From Acidobacteriaceae bacterium (GTDB lineage: Bacteria > Acidobacteriota > Terriglobia > Terriglobales > Acidobacteriaceae), in contig PLGM01000096.1 of the NCBI GenBank assembly GCA_003139795.1, positions 1-43,285 on the forward strand: a stretch of 43,285 nucleotides of DNA, written 5' to 3'. Below are positions 19,743 through 41,181 of this stretch, piece by piece (position 1 is the first letter of the stretch; each line of letters begins with the position of its first letter). Both the position numbers and the translations under genes were made by a program. The notes beneath the pieces were generated by a model. It was not told the origin of the DNA, did no database searches, and saw only the letters and a list, made by a program, of their open reading frames with translations.

Positions 19743-19751
19743 TTGATTATT

Positions 19752-19829
19752 GAAACAGGGGTGCTCCACGGAGTGGGGCTGAGAAATACCCTAGAACCCG
19801 ATCCGGATAATACCGGCGTGGGAAGTTTC
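19752..19829 (+). ncRNA. TPP (thiamine pyrophosphate) riboswitch
   Basis: The conserved THI-box elements are in order: GGGGTGC (19758-19764), a variable P3 stem, CTGAGA (19779-19784), ACCC (19788-19791), GAACC (19794-19798), GATCCGGATAATACCGGCG (P4/P5 region) and GGGAAGT. P1 is formed by GAAAC (19752-19756) with GTTTC (19825-19829). It binds TPP and should reduce expression of the downstream TonB receptor, kinase and PnuC-like transporter. The operon content fits thiamine uptake. Confidence 0.95.
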
Positions 19830-19868
19830 CTGGGCCTGACGGCCTTCTTCCTCGAAACGTAGCGTGAG

Positions 19869-27775: not shown

Positions 27776-28453
27776 TCAGACCGCGAGCAACTCGGTGTAG
27801 ACGGCCATGCCCACCACGGCGTCTGCGCCCAGCGCGTCAAGTGCATCCACCTCCTGCTGGCTGCGAATGCCGCCTGCCACAATGAGCTGCCTTTCCGTGA
27901 GCTTGCGGAGGCGCGCGGCGGTCGCGATGGGAAAGCCCTGCATCAGGCCCTCGCCGTCCACGTGCGTGTAGAGGAATGCGGCAGCGTAAGGCTCAAGCTG
28001 TGGAATCGCTTCGTCGGGCGTGAGAGCGACCTGCGCCCTCCAGCCTTTTACGGCGATGCGGCCGCTTTTGGTGTCGATGCCGGCGACCACGCGCTCCGCG
28101 CCCACGCCGGCGGCCAGCTCGGCGGCAAACGCTGTGTTGACCGCGCCATTTTCAGAGAAGAGCGCGGAGCCGATGATGACGCGCATGGCGCCCGCATCGA
28201 GCACCTGGCGGGCGCGCTCGATGGAGTGGATGCCGCCGCCGGCCTGGACTGGCAGCCGGTTCGCAATCTGCGCAACAAGTTGTGAATTGTCGCCCTGGCG
28301 CATGGCTGCGTCGAGGTCGATCAACTGTACGAGAGGAAAGCGCGCGAATCTTTCGATCCAGTATTCGAAATCGTCGAAGGCGAGGCGCAGTTTTTCGCCC
28401 TGCACCAGCTGAACGATGCGGCCGCCCAGCAAATCGATGGAAGGAATCAGCAT
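27776..28453 (-). CDS. hisA: HisA, ProFAR isomerase
   Basis: A 225-residue TIM-barrel enzyme that isomerises ProFAR to PRFAR in histidine synthesis. The catalytic Asp in IPSIDLLGG and the second Asp in VAGIDTKSG are in place; phosphate loops AGGGIHS and VAGGIRS are present. It is about 20 residues shorter than typical HisA, and the usual YTDIxRDG loop reads YTHVDGEG, so it is a somewhat divergent member. Its start overlaps hisF by 7 bases. It is the last his gene of the operon. Confidence 0.9.
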
Positions 28454-29226
28454 GGAAGCCTCACGGAGACGCCGGCGCGAGCCAATTCTTCTTTAAGCGA
28501 ACGCGAGCTCGAAACGCCGAAATGGAAGATGCTTGCCGCGAGCGCGGCGTCGGCTTTGCCGCGTGCGAATACTTCGATAAAGTGTGCCACGGTTCCGGCG
28601 CCTCCCGAGGCGATGACGGGAATGCCGACCGACTCGCTGACCGCGGCGGTGAGCTCGCAATCGAAGCCGGCGCGGGTTCCGTCGGAGTCCATGGAGGTGA
28701 GCAGGATTTCGCCTGCGCCGCGGGCTTCAGCCTCGTGCGCCCACTCGACCACGCGGCGGCCTGCCGGCTTGCGTCCGCCCTGCACAAATACCTGCGCGTC
28801 GCGGACCGGATCGGCGGCTTCCGGGTCGCGGCGCGCATCGATGGCGACGACGACGGCCTGTGCGCCAAATGTACGGCCGATGGCATCAATCAAGGTTGGG
28901 TCGGCGAGCGCAGCGGAGTTGACGCTGACCTTGTCGGCGCCGGCCTCGAAGACCTGCGCAGCGTCGGCGGCGGTGCGAATGCCGCCGCCTACGGCGAAAG
29001 GAATGAACAACTCACGAGCGGTTCTGCGCACGGTGTCGAGCAGTGTTTGCCGGCCTTCGTGCGTCGCGGTAATGTCGAGCAGCACAATTTCGTCGGCACC
29101 TTCGCGGGCATGGCGGGCAGCGAGGGCGGCAGGATCGCCGGCGTCGATCAGGTCGACGAACTGCACGCCTTTTACGACACGGCCGCCGTGCACATCGAGG
29201 CAGGCGATGATTCGCTTGGTCAGCAT
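28447..29226 (-). CDS. hisF: HisF, imidazole glycerol-phosphate synthase cyclase subunit
   Basis: A 259-residue TIM barrel that uses ammonia from HisH to convert PRFAR to IGP and AICAR. Catalytic Asp is in ACLDVHGG and the second in VVAIDARRD; phosphate loops VGGGIRT and ASGGAGT, and [10 protein letters not shown], match the family. GGTAGGG precedes the ATG. It follows hisH by 8 bases. Confidence 0.96.
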
Positions 29227-29234
29227 GCTGTTCC

Positions 29235-29837
29235 CTACCCTTCCCAGGAGAGAAAATTGGCTAGGATCTTGAGGCCGGTTGGCCCGGATTTTTCCGGATG
29301 AAACTGGACGCCCATGACGTTGGCGCGCTCGACTGCTGACGCGAAGGGTTCGATGTAGTGGGTGATGGCCGCGGTGTCGGCTGTGACCGGAGCTTTGTAG
29401 GAGTGCGTGAAGTAGACGAACTCGCCGGGTTCGACGCCGGCTAAAAGGCGCGAGCCTTTGCGTACTTCAAGGGAGTTCCAACCGACGTGCGGGACCTTTT
29501 CGTGGCTTTCAGAGAAGCGCGTGCAGCTCTCGGAGAATTGCGCTAGTCCCGGCTGCTGGGGCGCTTCGCTCGAGCCCGCGTAGAGCCACTGCATGCCCAC
29601 GCAGATGCCGAGGAAGGGAACGCCGCGTGCAATGGCTGCGCGGACAGCGGCGATGAGGCCGGTTGCGTCGAGGCGGTTGGTGGCCGCGAAATGACCTACG
29701 CCGGGGAGGACGATGCGCGTCGCGGATTCAACGAAAGACAGATTGCCATCTGTGACGACTGGCTCTGCACCCAGGTGGTGCAGGGCCTTGAGCACCGAAG
29801 TTAGATTGCCAGCTTTGTAGTCGATGACAGTGATCAT
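29235..29837 (-). CDS. hisH: HisH, glutamine amidotransferase subunit of IGP synthase
   Basis: A 200-residue class I glutamine amidotransferase that feeds ammonia to HisF. The nucleophilic Cys is in GICVGMQWL, the oxyanion region is PGVGHF, and the His-Glu pair is in QFHPEKSG. The ATG at 29837 gives the usual [11 protein letters not shown] start; an open frame of 22 more codons upstream is not family-like. It is separated from the preceding small membrane-protein gene by 46 bases. Confidence 0.95.
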
Positions 29838-29883
29838 TTGACCATTACCCAAAATGCGATATCGCTGAACCATAAGTACGCAG

Positions 29884-30117
29884 TTACACACGACGCGCAG
29901 CAATCGCCACTGCCCATCTTGGTCGCAGACTTATTGGGGCAAGAATGACTTCAGCAATGCTGATAACGAAACCAACCTCTGCGCAAATTACCATTGTGGA
30001 GAAATGGTCCTCATAAAATTGCTTATTCAAGAGGAGCCTGCCGATGTAGAGCAAGAAATTGGCGACGAAAGCAACGATTGCCGCCAATCGAACTCTGTCT
30101 CGCCATGTAATACTCAT
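29884..30117 (-). CDS. small two-helix membrane protein inside the his operon
   Basis: A 77-residue protein with two predicted membrane helices (about 10-29, LAAIVAFVANFLLYIG, and 42-63, VICAEVGFVISIAEVILAPI) and basic ends. It is not a known histidine enzyme. Its ATG overlaps the hisB stop by one base (TAATG), so it is translationally coupled. Its codons are visibly AT-richer than those of hisB and hisH, which suggests a later insertion into the operon. I do not recognise a family. Confidence 0.6.
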   Translation of the reverse strand: MSITWRDRVRLAAIVAFVANFLLYIGRLLLNKQFYEDHFSTMVICAEVGFVISIAEVILAPISLRPRWAVAIAARRV

Positions 30118-30746
30118 TAGAGAAGTCCCTTCGTGGATGGCAACAATTCGCCCAATTGTTTGTCCCGCGAGCAGGCCACGCGCAGGGCTCGCGCGAAGGC
30201 CTTGAAGATGGCTTCGATCTTGTGATGGTTGGAGCGGCCGTACATGGTCTTCACGTGCACGTTGGCGCGGGCGCCGCGCGCGAAGCCTTCAAAGAAATCC
30301 GTGACCAGTTCGGTTTGCAGGTCGCCCACCAGGCGGGTGCGGACTTTGGTTTCGACGGCGAAGGCCGCGCGCCCGCTCAGATCGACGGCGGCGATGGCGA
30401 GGGTTTCGTCCATGGGCATGAGGAAATATCCGGCGCGGAGAATGCCTCGCTTGTCGCCGAGGGCGCGGTCGAAGGCCTCGCCCAGCGCGATTCCCACGTC
30501 TTCAACGGTGTGATGCTGATCCACGTCGAGATCGCCGTCGCACCTGAGTTCAAGGTCGAAGGCGCCGTGACGCGTGAACAGCTCCAGCATGTGATCGAAG
30601 AAGCGAATGCCGGTGGAGATTTTGTACTGGCCGCGGCCTTCTACGATGAGGCGGATTGAGATGCGGGTTTCCGCGGTGTTGCGCTCAACGATGGAGGTGC
30701 GCGCGCTGGATTTGATTGCGGATTTCGCTTTTTTCCCGGTTGTCAT
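30117..30746 (-). CDS. hisB: HisB, imidazoleglycerol-phosphate dehydratase
   Basis: A 209-residue monofunctional IGP dehydratase (no histidinol-phosphatase domain). The manganese-binding motifs [23 protein letters not shown] and [14 protein letters not shown] are all present. A 15-20 residue basic N-terminal extension precedes the domain. GGAGGAG lies upstream of the ATG, which overlaps the hisC stop by 4 bases. Confidence 0.96.
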
Positions 30747-31852
30747 TGCGCTTCTCCTCCCAGTTTCAAAGCGGCGATGGCTTCGTTGAGGGCCAAAACG
30801 GCTTGCTGCATCTGCTCGCGGGTTCCAATGGTGATGCGGACACGGCCGTCGCAGCCGGGATCGCTGGAGCGGTCGCGGACCAGCACGCCGGCGGCGCGCA
30901 TGAGGCGCACAAACTCCGCGTGTTGAGGGCCGATGTCGACGAGGATGAAGTTGGCGCAGCTGGGCCAGCGGCGGAGTTTGGCTGCATCGAGGGCGGCTTC
31001 GAAATCGTGGCGCGCTCGAAGCACTTCGCTTACGTACCAGTCTATATAGGACGAGTCTTCGAGAGCGGGCGGAAGACAGGCCAGCGCGAGCGAGTTCACG
31101 CTGTAGGGCGAAAGGACGCGGCGCACCCAGCGCATTAACTCCACCGGACCCGCAAGCAAGCCGAGACGCAGGCCTGCGAGGCCGTAGGCCTTGGAGAAGG
31201 TTCGCGCGACAACCAGGTTGGGAAGGGCGCGGACCAGATCGATCACCGTCTCGCCGTGGAAGTGAAAGTAGGCTTCGTCGACAAGGAGCACGGCGTGAGG
31301 CGCGCGGTGAGCGATCTGAAGAAGCTGCGCGCGGGAGGCGACGCTGCCCGAGGGGCTGTTGGGATTGGCGATGGCGATGATTTTGGTGCGCGGCGTGATA
31401 GCGGCGATGAGGCGCTCGATGGGAAACTGCAGGTCGTCGGCGGCCAACACGGGGACCAAGTGTGCATCCGTGGCCGATGCATAGACCTCGTACATGGTGT
31501 AGGTGGGGACGGGCAGCAGCAGTTCGTCGCCTGCTTCAAGGAAGGTTTCAAAGAGGACGTGAATGGCTTCGTCCACGCCATTGGTGAGAGCCACCTGCGG
31601 CGCGGCGAGACCGAGATGGGCGGCGACGATGGTTTCGACGGGTTCGCGCTCGGGATAACGCGTGAGATCGCCAGCGGAGATGCGGCCAAGCACTTCGCGC
31701 ACCCTGGGCGAACAGGCGAGCGTGTTCTCGTTGAAGTCGAGGCGGAGCAGATCGCGGTTGCCGAGAGGAGGGTGATACTCCTTCATCGACTGCACGCGCA
31801 GGCGCGGCGCTGGAGTGATTGCAGTCACGGCTTCAGGGGCGGCTTCCGTCAT
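30743..31852 (-). CDS. hisC: HisC, histidinol-phosphate aminotransferase
   Basis: A 369-residue PLP enzyme that converts imidazole acetol phosphate to histidinol phosphate. LDFNENTL at the N-terminus, [16 protein letters not shown] and the Schiff-base Lys in [16 protein letters not shown] mark the HisC group; RVRITIGT carries the C-terminal substrate Arg. The ATG at 31852 has AAGGAG 5 bases upstream and lies 20 bases inside the end of hisD, so the two genes overlap. Confidence 0.95.
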
Positions 31853-33122
31853 GGTGACTCCTTCTCTGCAAGCGGGTGCGAATGGCCTCGGCGTGGCCTG
31901 TGAGGCCTTCGGCATCCGCGAGCAACGCGGCTTTTGGACCGAGCGAGCGCAGCGATTGCGCGGAGTACTGCTGCACGGTGATGAGCTTGACGAAGTCGTT
32001 GACGCTGAGGGCCCCGCGGACACGGGCTGTGCCGCCGGTGGGCAGCGTGTGATTGGGTCCGGAGATGTAATCGCCCATGGGCTGCGCGGACCAGCGGCCG
32101 ACGAAGACCGAACCCGCATTCCGCACCCAATCGAGGTCGCTGGGGGCGTCCACGGTGAGGTGCTCGGGGGCAAGCCGATTGGTGATGATGCGCGCCTCGT
32201 CGACGGTTGAGGCGACGATCACGAGGCCGTTGCGATCAAGGGCGGCGCGCGCGACGGGATTCTTGCGGCTGCGCATCTTTCCTTCGGCGATGACCTCTTT
32301 TGCGAGCTCTTCGCGCGTGGTGATGAAGATGGCGAGGGCCTCGGGATCGTGCTCGGCCTGCGCGACGAGGTCGGAGGCAATGGCGGTTGGGTTGCCGCGC
32401 TCGCTCGTCACCACAATTTCAGTGGGGCCGGCGAGCATGTCGATGGCGCAATCGAAGGCTACGAGGCGCTTGGCCGCGGTGACATAGAGGTTGCCGGGGC
32501 CGACGATCTTGTCGACGCGCGGGAGTGTTGCGGTTCCGTAGGCCAACGCGGCGACAGCATGCGCGCCACCGAGGCGATAGAACTCCGGGATGCCGAGCAG
32601 GTGGGCGGCGGCGAGGGTTTCAGGCGCGGGTTTGGGCGAGACGACCGCGATGCGCGCGACGCCCGCGACCTGCGCGGGAATGGCGGTCATGAGCAGCGTG
32701 GAGGGCAACGGATGGCGGCCACTTGGGACATAGCAACCCACCGAGGCGAGTGGGCGGACAAGTTGGCCGGTGGTGAGGCCGGGGATGGGAGATAAGTTCC
32801 ATGAGGCAGGAAGTTGTTGCTGGGCAAAAGTGCGAATCTGCCCTGCCGCCGTGGACAATGCGTCGCGCAGAGCGGGATTGATGGATTCCCATGCAGCGGC
32901 CATTTCTTCTTTCGTGACGCGCAGGCTCGATGTCTCGGTGAGGCCGTCAAATTTTTCGGCGTAACGTAACAGAGCGCGGTCGCCTTGCTTGCGCACATCG
33001 GCGACAATGCGCCTGACAGCGGGCAGCACACTGTCGAGTGCGGCCCCGCCACGTCGTTCCAGGGTGGCGAGAATTTCCTCCGATTGTTGAGCGCCGCGTC
33101 CTTTGGTCCGGATTAACCTCAT
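31833..33122 (-). CDS. hisD: HisD, histidinol dehydrogenase
   Basis: A 429-residue zinc enzyme that oxidises histidinol to histidine in two steps. Recognisable blocks are CYVPSGRHPLPSTLLM, GGAHAVAALAYGT, VDKIVGPGNLYVTAAKR, DMLAGPTEIVV, QAEHDPEA and GDYISGPNHTLPTGGTARVRGALSV, including the zinc-site Gln and His in LVAQAEHD. AAGGGG precedes the ATG. It is separated from hisG by 116 bases of palindromic sequence, the one loose joint in the 5' half of the operon. Confidence 0.96.
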   Translation of the reverse strand: MRLIRTKGRGAQQSEEILATLERRGGAALDSVLPAVRRIVADVRKQGDRALLRYAEKFDGLTETSSLRVTKEEMAAAWESINPALRDALSTAAGQIRTFAQQQLPASWNLSPIPGLTTGQLVRPLASVGCYVPSGRHPLPSTLLMTAIPAQVAGVARIAVVSPKPAPETLAAAHLLGIPEFYRLGGAHAVAALAYGTATLPRVDKIVGPGNLYVTAAKRLVAFDCAIDMLAGPTEIVVTSERGNPTAIASDLVAQAEHDPEALAIFITTREELAKEVIAEGKMRSRKNPVARAALDRNGLVIVASTVDEARIITNRLAPEHLTVDAPSDLDWVRNAGSVFVGRWSAQPMGDYISGPNHTLPTGGTARVRGALSVNDFVKLITVQQYSAQSLRSLGPKAALLADAEGLTGHAEAIRTRLQRRSHHDGSRP

Positions 33123-33169
33123 GATTCCCCTTCGTCGTCTCCCACCCTAGCGACAAAAACAAAAACGTC

Positions 33170-33211
33170 GTGCCCCGACCCTGAGGGTGTCCCGGCGCCC
33201 AGGTGGGGCAC
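33170..33211. repeat. palindromic insertion between hisG and hisD
   Basis: Arms GTGCCCC / GGGGCAC (33170-33176 and 33205-33211) enclose a smaller palindrome ACCCTGAGGGT (33178-33188). The surrounding sequence, with CCCACCCTAGCGAC and GGGGCACCC, looks related in style to the other intergenic repeats here. It could attenuate or stabilise the his mRNA between hisG and hisD; no T-run follows it. Confidence 0.5.
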
Positions 33212-33238
33212 CCAAATTTTGGTGACGGTGAAAGCGGT

Positions 33239-34114
33239 TCAAAGCACCACCTTGTTGAGCGGGTATTCGACGATGCCTGTCGCCTTGGCTGCTTTCAGGC
33301 GCGGGATTACGTCGCGGGCGACGCGCTCTTCGACGATGGTGTTGACCGCGACCCATTCCGAGTCGCTCAACTGAGAGATGGTGGGCGAATTCAAGGCGGG
33401 CAGCACGGCGAGAACGGCTTCGAGGTCCGCGCGCCTGACGTTGAGCATGAGGCCGACCTGCGATTGAGCGTCGATGGCGCCGCGCAGCATGAGCGCGATC
33501 TGATCGAGTTTCTGGCGCTTCCACGGGTCTGCAAGCGTGGCGTTGCCGGCGATGAGATGAGTCTCGCTCTCCATGACCGTGTCGATGATCTTGAGGTGGT
33601 TGGCCTTGAGGGAGCTCCCGGTCTCAGTGACTTCAACGATGGCGTCGGCGAGCATGGGCGGCTTGACTTCCGTTGCGCCCCAACTGAATTCGACCTTGGC
33701 GTTGACGCCCTTTTCAGCCAAGTAGCGCCTGGTGACTTCGACCAGCTCAGTGGCGATGATTTTGCCTTCGAGGTCCTCGGCCTTTTCAAAGCCGCTGCCT
33801 TCGGGAACGGCGAGCACCCAGCGAACCTTGCGGCGGCTCTGCTTGGCATAGGTGAGCGAGGCGACGCTGGTGACGTCGAGGCCGCTCTCGACCACCCAGT
33901 CGATGCCGGTGAGGCCCGCATCGAGAACGCCGTGATCGACGTAGCGCGCCATCTCCTGCGCGCGAATCAACATGCACTCGATTTCGGGGTCGTCGATGGA
34001 GGGGAAGTAGGAGCGGCCGTCGGCGTAGATGTTCCAGCCGGCGCGTTTGAAGAGAGCGACGGTGGCATCCTGCAGGCTGCCCTTGGGGATGCCGAGTCTA
34101 AGCTTGTTGGCCAC
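33239..34114 (-). CDS. hisG: HisG, ATP phosphoribosyltransferase (long form)
   Basis: A 291-residue enzyme for the first committed step, joining ATP and PRPP. It has the full catalytic domain ([11 protein letters not shown] at the N-terminus, [14 protein letters not shown], and the PRPP loop [14 protein letters not shown]) and the C-terminal regulatory domain (about residues 215-291) of the long form, so it should be histidine-feedback-inhibited and need no HisZ. The start is GTG at 34114 with GAGGAAA upstream, 17 bases inside the end of hisI. Confidence 0.95.
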
Positions 34115-34490
34115 GGGTTTCCTCTTTCTGATTGTCAGGCTCCTGGTTGGAGGCGCCTACGGGCAGCGGTTTGGTGAAGCAACTGACGGTGCCCTCGTGG
34201 CAGACCAGGCCGTCGCCCTCGACTTCGACGCGGAAGAGCAGGGTGTCGTTGTCGCAGTCGGTGGAGGCGGAGATTACGCGCAGACGGTTGCCGCTGGTCT
34301 CGCCCTTCATCCACAGCTTCCGGCGGGTGCGGCTCCAGAAGGTGACGAAGCCGGTTTCAAGGGTTTTGGCATAGCTGGCTGGATTGAGAAAGCCCAGCAT
34401 CAGCACTTCGCTGGTGCGCGCATCCTGCACAATGCCGGGGACGAGGCCATCCATCTTGCCGAAATCGATTGTTGCGGTTTCAATGCTCAT
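34098..34490 (-). CDS. hisI: HisI, phosphoribosyl-AMP cyclohydrolase
   Basis: A 130-residue monofunctional cyclohydrolase that opens the PR-AMP ring. The signature [18 protein letters not shown], the metal-binding DCDND and CHEGTVSCF motifs are intact. There is no fused HisE (PR-ATP pyrophosphatase) domain, and no separate hisE is seen in the window. AGGAAAAG precedes the ATG. It is the first enzyme gene after the attenuator, about 41 bases downstream of the terminator T-run. Confidence 0.95.
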
Positions 34491-34531: not shown

Positions 34532-34564
34532 AAAAAGCCCGCCGGCTTGGGTCGCCGGCGGGCT
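34532..34564 (-). terminator. his operon attenuator terminator
   Basis: On the minus strand AGCCCGCCGGC pairs perfectly with GCCGGCGGGCT (11 bp, 7-base loop) and is followed by a U-run (TTTTT). It lies between the His-rich leader and hisI. Its 5' arm contains CCGCCGGC (34554-34561), which can alternatively pair with GCCGGCGG in the leader codons (34613-34620), an 8-bp antiterminator. Confidence 0.9.
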
Positions 34565-34592
34565 TGGGTGCTTCTTAGATCTCTCTGGCCGC

Positions 34593-34670
34593 TTACATCA
34601 GGCCATGGCAGTCCGCCGGCATGGAGGTTCCATGATGGTGGTGGTGACCGTGATGGCGGTAGCTCTGCAT
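34593..34670 (-). CDS. hisL: HisL-like his operon leader peptide
   Basis: A 25-codon frame read on the minus strand: MQSYRHHGHHHHHG followed by TSMPADCHGLM and a TAA stop. Eight of 25 residues are His, seven of them within eight consecutive codons (6-13). It precedes the his terminator, and the stretch encoding residues 17-20 (34613-34620) is the antiterminator strand. Ribosomes stalled on the His codons would leave that strand free to disrupt the terminator; ribosomes that reach the stop would cover it and let the terminator form. This is the classical attenuation logic of enterobacterial hisL. No Shine-Dalgarno sequence is present and the promoter lies very close, so the leader may be translated from a leaderless or very short 5' end. 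Confidence 0.85.
   Translation of the reverse strand: MQSYRHHGHHHHHGTSMPADCHGLM
34620..34634 (-). promoter_or_regulatory. possible pause hairpin in the his leader
   Basis: CATGGA / TCCATG form a 6-bp stem with a 3-base loop spanning leader codons 13-17, directly before the antiterminator strand. It is a candidate pause or 1:2 hairpin. Confidence 0.4.
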
Positions 34671-34678
34671 CTGTTTAG

Positions 34679-34708
34679 AACGTAAGGGGAAACCCCTTGT
34701 GGTGTCAA
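34679..34708 (-). promoter_or_regulatory. candidate his operon promoter
   Basis: On the minus strand, a consensus TTGACA (34703-34708) and TACGTT (34679-34684) are 18 bases apart. The spacer holds a palindrome AAGGGGTTTCCCCTT (34684-34698). A start about 7 bases after the -10 would be almost at the leader ATG (34670). The -10 match is weak. Confidence 0.45.
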
Positions 34709-41103: not shown

Positions 41104-41181
41104 GTCCCCGTCGTCTAGCCCGGCCTAGGACACCGCCCTTTCACGGCGATAACACGGGTTCAAATCCCGTCGGGGACGCCA
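41104..41181 (+). tRNA. tRNA-Glu (anticodon UUC)
   Basis: A complete cloverleaf: acceptor GTCCCCG (41104-41110) pairs with CGGGGAC (41171-41177); the anticodon stem-loop CCGCC-CTTTCAC-GGCGA gives TTC; the T-arm is CGGG-TTCAAAT-CCCG; a G discriminator and an encoded CCA end the gene at 41181. It inserts Glu at GAA/GAG codons. Its 3' half is the probable attachment site of the adjacent integrated element. Confidence 0.95.

Follow-up and report, generated by a model that had tools for sequence, protein, structure and literature searches.

What does a short, His-rich reading frame do immediately ahead of hisI in a genome of the Acidobacteriaceae, and how would a ribosome come to read it? We analyzed a contig of 43,285 nucleotides, the whole of which is called the window here, together with its relatives. 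With a probability of about 0.88, we favor the reading that the his operon is under ribosome-mediated transcription attenuation and that its leader peptide is made from a leaderless transcript.

Layout and distribution of a His-rich leader ahead of hisI

The window contains a his operon in the order hisI-G-D-C-B-orf-H-F-A, with all genes on the same strand. Genes were identified by Pfam and gene order: hisC is a Pfam aminotransferase and hisH a Pfam glutamine amidotransferase, both assigned by place, and hisF and hisA, the two His_biosynth proteins in Pfam, were assigned by order only. The 77-aa ORF between hisB and hisH (29884 to 30117, minus strand) matched no Pfam family. Elsewhere in the window, a TPP riboswitch scored above the Rfam gathering score (19747 to 19841, plus strand), and Rfam also identified a tRNA gene (41104 to 41178, plus strand). 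The roughly 500 nt before trpE in the same genome, and the same before ilvB (L274 and L276), held no convincing Trp or Ile/Val leader peptide.

Read along the minus strand from 34708 to 34490, the locus opens with TTGACA and, after an 18-nt spacer, TACGTT. Eight nucleotides separate TACGTT from an ORF of 25 codons, eight of which are His, and 27 nt separate that ORF from a terminator with a G/C-rich stem of 12 bp and a T run. The hisI ATG is 41 nt further on. Its features, with the evidence for each, are as follows.

34703 to 34708, minus strand: -35 box TTGACA of the predicted his promoter (30/30 genus loci; TTGAC placement in genera)
34679 to 34684, minus strand: predicted -10 box TACGTT, separated from the -35 box by 18 nt and from the leader ATG by 8 nt (best promoter fit, L001)
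34671 to 34672, minus strand: predicted transcription start (A or G), giving a 5' UTR of about 1 to 2 nt (from the -10 spacing)
34593 to 34670, minus strand: leader peptide ORF (hisL), 25 codons plus stop (ORF reading and comparison with relatives)
34632 to 34655, minus strand: regulatory codons 6 to 13, seven of the eight being His (translation of the leader ORF)
34613 to 34620, minus strand: segment 2, GCCGGCGG, predicted 5' strand of the antiterminator (8/8 pairing with 34554 to 34561; coevolution)
34532 to 34565, minus strand: intrinsic terminator with a 12-bp stem, a 7-nt loop, and a T run, its 5' arm including segment 3 at 34554 to 34561 (folding)
34098 to 34490, minus strand: hisI, phosphoribosyl-AMP cyclohydrolase, first gene of the operon (Pfam PRA-CH, E = 7.3e-29)
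27776 to 34114, minus strand: rest of the his operon, namely hisG, hisD, hisC, hisB, the 77-aa ORF, hisH, hisF, and hisA (Pfam and order)

The leader ORF, running from 34670 to 34593, encodes MQSYRHHGHHHHHGTSMPADCHGLM, with His at codons 6, 7, 9 to 13, and 22. Only one stretch of the window has seven or more His within 10 codons, and 20 mononucleotide shuffles produced none. Segment 2 (34620 to 34613) pairs at eight of eight positions with segment 3, CCGCCGGC (34561 to 34554), inside the 5' arm of the terminator; it lies 17 nt from the leader stop codon, which is itself 102 nt from the hisI start. By folding, the terminator stem is AAGCCCGCCGGC/GCCGGCGGGCTT, with G-C at 10 of its 12 pairs, and in our own reading it takes up part of the T run. 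The folding z-score here is -3.8.

When the coordinates of the initial sequence-only reading were rechecked, they proved exact for the 25-codon leader with eight His (seven in codons 6 to 13), for the strong terminator upstream of hisI, and for the eight-base complementarity between leader and terminator arm. The terminator it had called a perfect 11-bp hairpin is indeed strong and G/C rich but folds as 12 bp, a slight miscount. We confirm that the attenuator-like layout ahead of hisI, as first seen, is real. In addition, the leader stop codon lies within a short hairpin (UGGCC...GGCCA) in the genus, at about 34606 to 34586 (minus strand) in the window; this hairpin is located within the antiterminator loop and is retained in L004 with changes on both sides.

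Conservation in relatives, the absence of which had been set as the refutation of the initial reading, was found throughout the genus. The first 30 loci, comprising the window and 29 relatives, were the 30 best of 91 matching genomes and belong to one genus; all 30 share the leader layout, terminator included, before hisI. A sequence model built from these loci (R1) recovered the leader in 76 of 80 genomes of the genus, the window's own included, and the four genomes without a leader match were all without a hisI match. These four are G053, G034, G007, and G105; three genomes of the same family, G210, G361, and G242, are also without a hisI match. Completeness is 98% for G053 and 98 to 100% for the latter three, and genomes of this kind could be histidine auxotrophs or carriers of a divergent hisI.

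Across the class, the R1 model matched 190 of 299 genomes at E up to 0.1, eight of which belong to the genus. Sixty of the 182 matching genomes outside the genus, mostly those with better scores, were inspected, and 55 had a real leader while 5 were false. A subset of the 109 class genomes without an R1 match was checked for the leader; among genomes of the same family that carry hisI and escaped the model, it was present in four of four. In the order and class outside the family, and independently of the R1 model, a leader was found in 25 of 35 hisI-bearing genomes (21/31 plus 4/4), under a loose criterion of at least three His in 8 codons by which L142 and L104 are the weakest cases. The 10 without a leader all belong to families f4, f9, and f10, and in several of these the DNA just upstream of hisI resembles, in our reading, the end of a HisF protein.

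Outside the class, 5 of 18 inspected matches were real and 13 were false. The real leaders were those of three f37 genomes and one f59 genome, before hisI, and of one f80 genome, before hisG. The f80 case is the His leader of L173 (G561), which has the same layout and precedes a hisG-like ORF instead of hisI. Named HisI loci carried the leader in 13 of 80 cases: 11 of the 13 Acidobacteriota loci with enough upstream sequence, a 14th (L196) having too little, and 2 of the 66 others. Terracidiphilus gabretensis S55 (L191) is among the carriers. L207 and L216, from metagenome-assembled genomes titled Cyanobacteria and Armatimonadetes, show a comparable arrangement of His leader and terminator upstream of hisI, with a GTG start in L216; mislabelled bins, transfer, and convergence are possible explanations. 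The full leader set comprised 111 leaders from 56 genera and 13 families, with 3 to 8 His in the best 10 codons across the 56 genera. In 109 of these leaders, all but L109 and L134, a terminator with a T tract could be placed.

Predicted start of the leader transcript

The TTGACA box is invariant in 30 of 30 loci of the window's genus, and 40 of 56 genera have TTGAC where it would be expected. The TACGTT box, in our own reading, agrees with the -10 consensus at three of six positions only, and the AG preceding the leader ATG is at least 90% conserved over the 30 loci. With one sequence taken per genus, 46 of 56 genera had a fitted -10 box 5 to 11 nt upstream of the leader start, compared with 20% in shuffles. 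A TAnnnT ending 6 to 12 nt upstream of that start was present in 52 genera of the 56; the rate in shuffles was 9.2%. About 7 nt separate the -10 box from the transcription start in Corynebacterium glutamicum (PMC3896937); at that distance, the placement of the -10 box would leave a 5' UTR of about 0 to 5 nt.

The translation signals point the same way. Anti-Shine-Dalgarno pairing before the leader start showed no excess in 51 genera (-0.53, versus -0.67 in the leaders' own shuffles), and the energy before hisI at the same loci was -5.87; hisI starts could be located for 51 of the 55 genera in this comparison. Pairing of -4.5 kcal/mol or better was found before hisI in 37 of the 51 genera and before the leader in 3. 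Leaderless genes have been estimated at 13.3% on average for three Acidobacteria genomes (PMC3160421), which makes a leaderless leader plausible for the phylum. We predict from these signals that the leader ORF is translated from a leaderless transcript, a point that goes beyond the model of the sequence-only reading.

The same attenuator might instead be carried by a conventional leadered transcript that starts farther upstream and includes a ribosome-binding site. It would suit this alternative that a generic consensus scanner flagged no promoter (and no terminator) at the window's leader region, missing the predicted one, and that three of the genera do pair well with the anti-Shine-Dalgarno sequence; a signal before the leader no higher than in shuffles, when most of the same loci have one before hisI, and a promoter spacing that leaves only a few nucleotides speak against it. 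We regard a leadered transcript as unlikely, if the most probable of the alternatives, and retain the leaderless start as the working model.

The genus consensus between the -35 and -10 boxes (34684 to 34699 in the window, minus strand) reads GGGGTTTGCCCTTA, and the interval in the window itself contains a near-perfect inverted repeat (AAGGGGTTTCCCCTT), which may be an operator or a product of chance.

Coevolution of leader and terminator arm

RNAalifold, applied to the genus alignment, returned the antiterminator helix almost without variation, and covariation was therefore tested across genera. The set for this comparison held 107 leaders from 55 genera; L109, L134, L004, and L114 were left out, the last two because the terminator arm was mis-parsed. 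Native pairing between a leader and its own 5' arm averaged -19.8 kcal/mol, compared with -17.2 kcal/mol for permuted arms (z = -7.6; 0 of 5000 permutations; 55 genera, 13 families), and in a larger run 0 of 20,000 permutations were as good as native. With one genus per family (13 families), permuted pairing equaled or beat native pairing in 0.1% of 2000 draws. No native pairing excess appeared for any of four control segments: z was -0.5 for the first 36 nt of the leader and +0.5 for promoter DNA, and the leader versus the 3' arm (+1.8) and the spacer from stop to arm (+2.7) both leaned the opposite way. The terminator's own two arms gave z = -16.7 in the same permutation test. The signal is uneven, with more than 85% of foreign arms pairing at least as well as the native arm in each of L160, L119, and L176.

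Both sides of several pairs change, the kind of compensatory change in the stems that the initial reading had expected. Pair types at one helix position were GC 27, AU 12, GU 8, and UA 1, and at another CG 18, UA 13, UG 8, and GC 4; because these tables were built on the best duplex of each genus, they are biased in favor of pairing, and the permutations serve as control for this. L014 and L071 have a frame shift after the His run that changes the tail of the peptide, and they keep the segment-2 RNA. Comparison across genera thus argues that the antiterminator between leader and 5' arm is real. The core of the sequence-only reading, an attenuator made of a His leader, a terminator, and an antiterminator, draws its support from this coevolution and from conservation.

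A stalled ribosome could also govern the translation of hisI, by translational attenuation or reinitiation, rather than transcription termination. We consider this very improbable: the T-tracted terminator is present in nearly all leaders, with the antiterminator aimed at its 5' arm, and hisI has a Shine-Dalgarno signal of its own. Reinitiation at leader genes near the next gene has been argued for several phyla, including Acidobacteria, in a study in which the distances described are 10 to 11 bp (PMC4833913), against the 102 nt found here between the leader stop and hisI.

Less probable still is that the ORF encodes a functional His-rich, perhaps metal-binding, small protein, with a terminator that is there by chance or is part of another transcript. 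Good conservation of the peptide within the genus would suit such a protein. Against it, the peptide diverges beyond the genus except for the His run, the two frame changes preserve RNA and not peptide, segment 2 coevolves with the terminator arm, and the true cases examined all precede hisI, or in one instance hisG.

Direct sensing of tRNA-His or histidine by a T-box or another riboswitch is the least credible of the alternatives, for although his genes are under T-box control in Firmicutes and Actinobacteria (PMC9413887), the conserved feature here is a translated His run, and the leader region had no Rfam match at the gathering score and, at E up to 5, nine sub-threshold matches, none of them to a T-box or to RF00514.

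Simulated ribosome positions and relation to known attenuators

Under the favored leaderless attenuator, RNA polymerase would start 0 to 5 nt upstream of the leader start codon, and a ribosome would load onto the 5'-terminal AUG. If charged His-tRNA were scarce, the ribosome would stall within codons 6 to 13 and leave segment 2 free, to pair with the 5' arm of the terminator once that arm emerged; with the antiterminator formed, the terminator would not form and the genes from hisI to hisA would be transcribed. If His-tRNA were plentiful, the ribosome would proceed over codons 15 to 25 and cover segment 2, and the terminator would form. The operon would in this way be controlled by His-tRNA charging and respond to histidine.

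We modeled these states with transcripts cut just after the 5' arm and a simulated ribosome footprint. Over 55 genera, the mean probability of the antiterminator was 0.80, 0.83, and 0.66 with the first, middle, and last His in the A site, 0.13 once the ribosome had reached the stop codon, and 0.47 when the transcript carried none. In these simulations, the pattern over the 55 genera is that of a classical switch. The initial claim that a ribosome at the stop codon covers segment 2 would fit the mean over these genera but holds only partly in the window's genus, and in the window it depends on the assumed footprint. With a 15-nt upstream footprint, the antiterminator of the window was favored at A-site codons 1 to 13 and blocked at codons 15 to 24. 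A ribosome at the window's stop codon reaches only the edge of segment 2, and the antiterminator probability there was 0.98, 0.85, and 0.00 for upstream footprints of 12, 15, and 18 nt. Across the genus, the antiterminator was still favored in 20 of 30 loci with the ribosome at the stop codon (15-nt upstream footprint) and in 26 of 30 with no ribosome.

Segment 2 was paired upstream, as in a protector hairpin, with a probability above 0.5 in 23 of 55 genera; in the window's genus this hairpin is weak, with a mean probability of 0.11 over 30 loci. Only 23 of 55 genera have 13 nt or more between the final His of the run and segment 2 downstream of it, so a ribosome stalled at that His may partly cover segment 2. 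At equilibrium, the full-length leader of 25 of the 30 loci folded preferentially into the terminator, even when codon 12 was occupied by a ribosome; antitermination would therefore have to be kinetic, with the order of synthesis mattering.

The enterobacterial his attenuator (Rfam His_leader, RF00514) likewise places a short ORF with a His run and alternative antiterminator and terminator structures ahead of the his operon. The Acidobacteriota leader differs from it in having no RF00514 match at the gathering score or at E up to 5, and in its first gene, which is hisI here and hisG in E. coli. No Shine-Dalgarno sequence and almost no 5' UTR are predicted here, segment 2 lies within the coding region, and the protector hairpin is weak in the window's genus; an untranslated trp or his leader of E. 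coli terminates. The his leader peptide of E. coli and Salmonella has 18 residues, with seven consecutive His (PMC3896937).

The leaderless layout predicted here is described for trpL of Sinorhizobium meliloti, the transcript of which begins at the ATG of the leader ORF, in another phylum and with a 14-aa peptide carrying Trp instead of His (PMC7298713). Ribosome-mediated his attenuation has likewise been predicted outside Proteobacteria in Firmicutes, for hisS paralogues of bacilli and for his genes in the B. cereus group, Peptostreptococcaceae, and Erysipelotrichales (PMC2965389, PMC9413887); those leaders come from a few small lineages, and the leader set assembled here covers 56 genera and 13 families. 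The string "Acidobacteri-" has no occurrence in the main text of PMC9413887. Leader-peptide attenuators of trp, cys, and ilv genes are reported for Actinobacteria, in a study that reports no conserved RNA structure ahead of histidine operons (PMC1262725). PMC4833913 cites a conference paper from 2015 that deals with actinobacterial leader peptides containing His. A survey of 104 motifs includes two from Acidobacteria, both marked as not cis-regulatory, and histidine goes unmentioned in its accessible text (PMC2864571). Among the matches listed in a search of the open-access literature, we found no report of a his leader peptide in Acidobacteria. Lopatovskaya and colleagues reportedly made a comparative survey of attenuation in 2010.

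The analysis presents a his leader peptide distributed across a class. Its natural compensatory changes open the mechanism to testing, and a named carrier strain, T. gabretensis S55, could serve as a bench system. The predicted leaderless layout raises the question of how transcription and translation are coupled when the ribosome loads on the first nucleotides of the RNA. We suggest, tentatively and as something rather more apt to fail than to hold, that control of histidine synthesis by a leaderless his attenuator is both old and standard in Acidobacteriota, and that in the window's genus the switch has only three segments and its protector hairpin does not work. An untranslated leader would then read through. 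If this three-segment reading is true, the switch would report failed leaderless initiation as well as shortage of His-tRNA.
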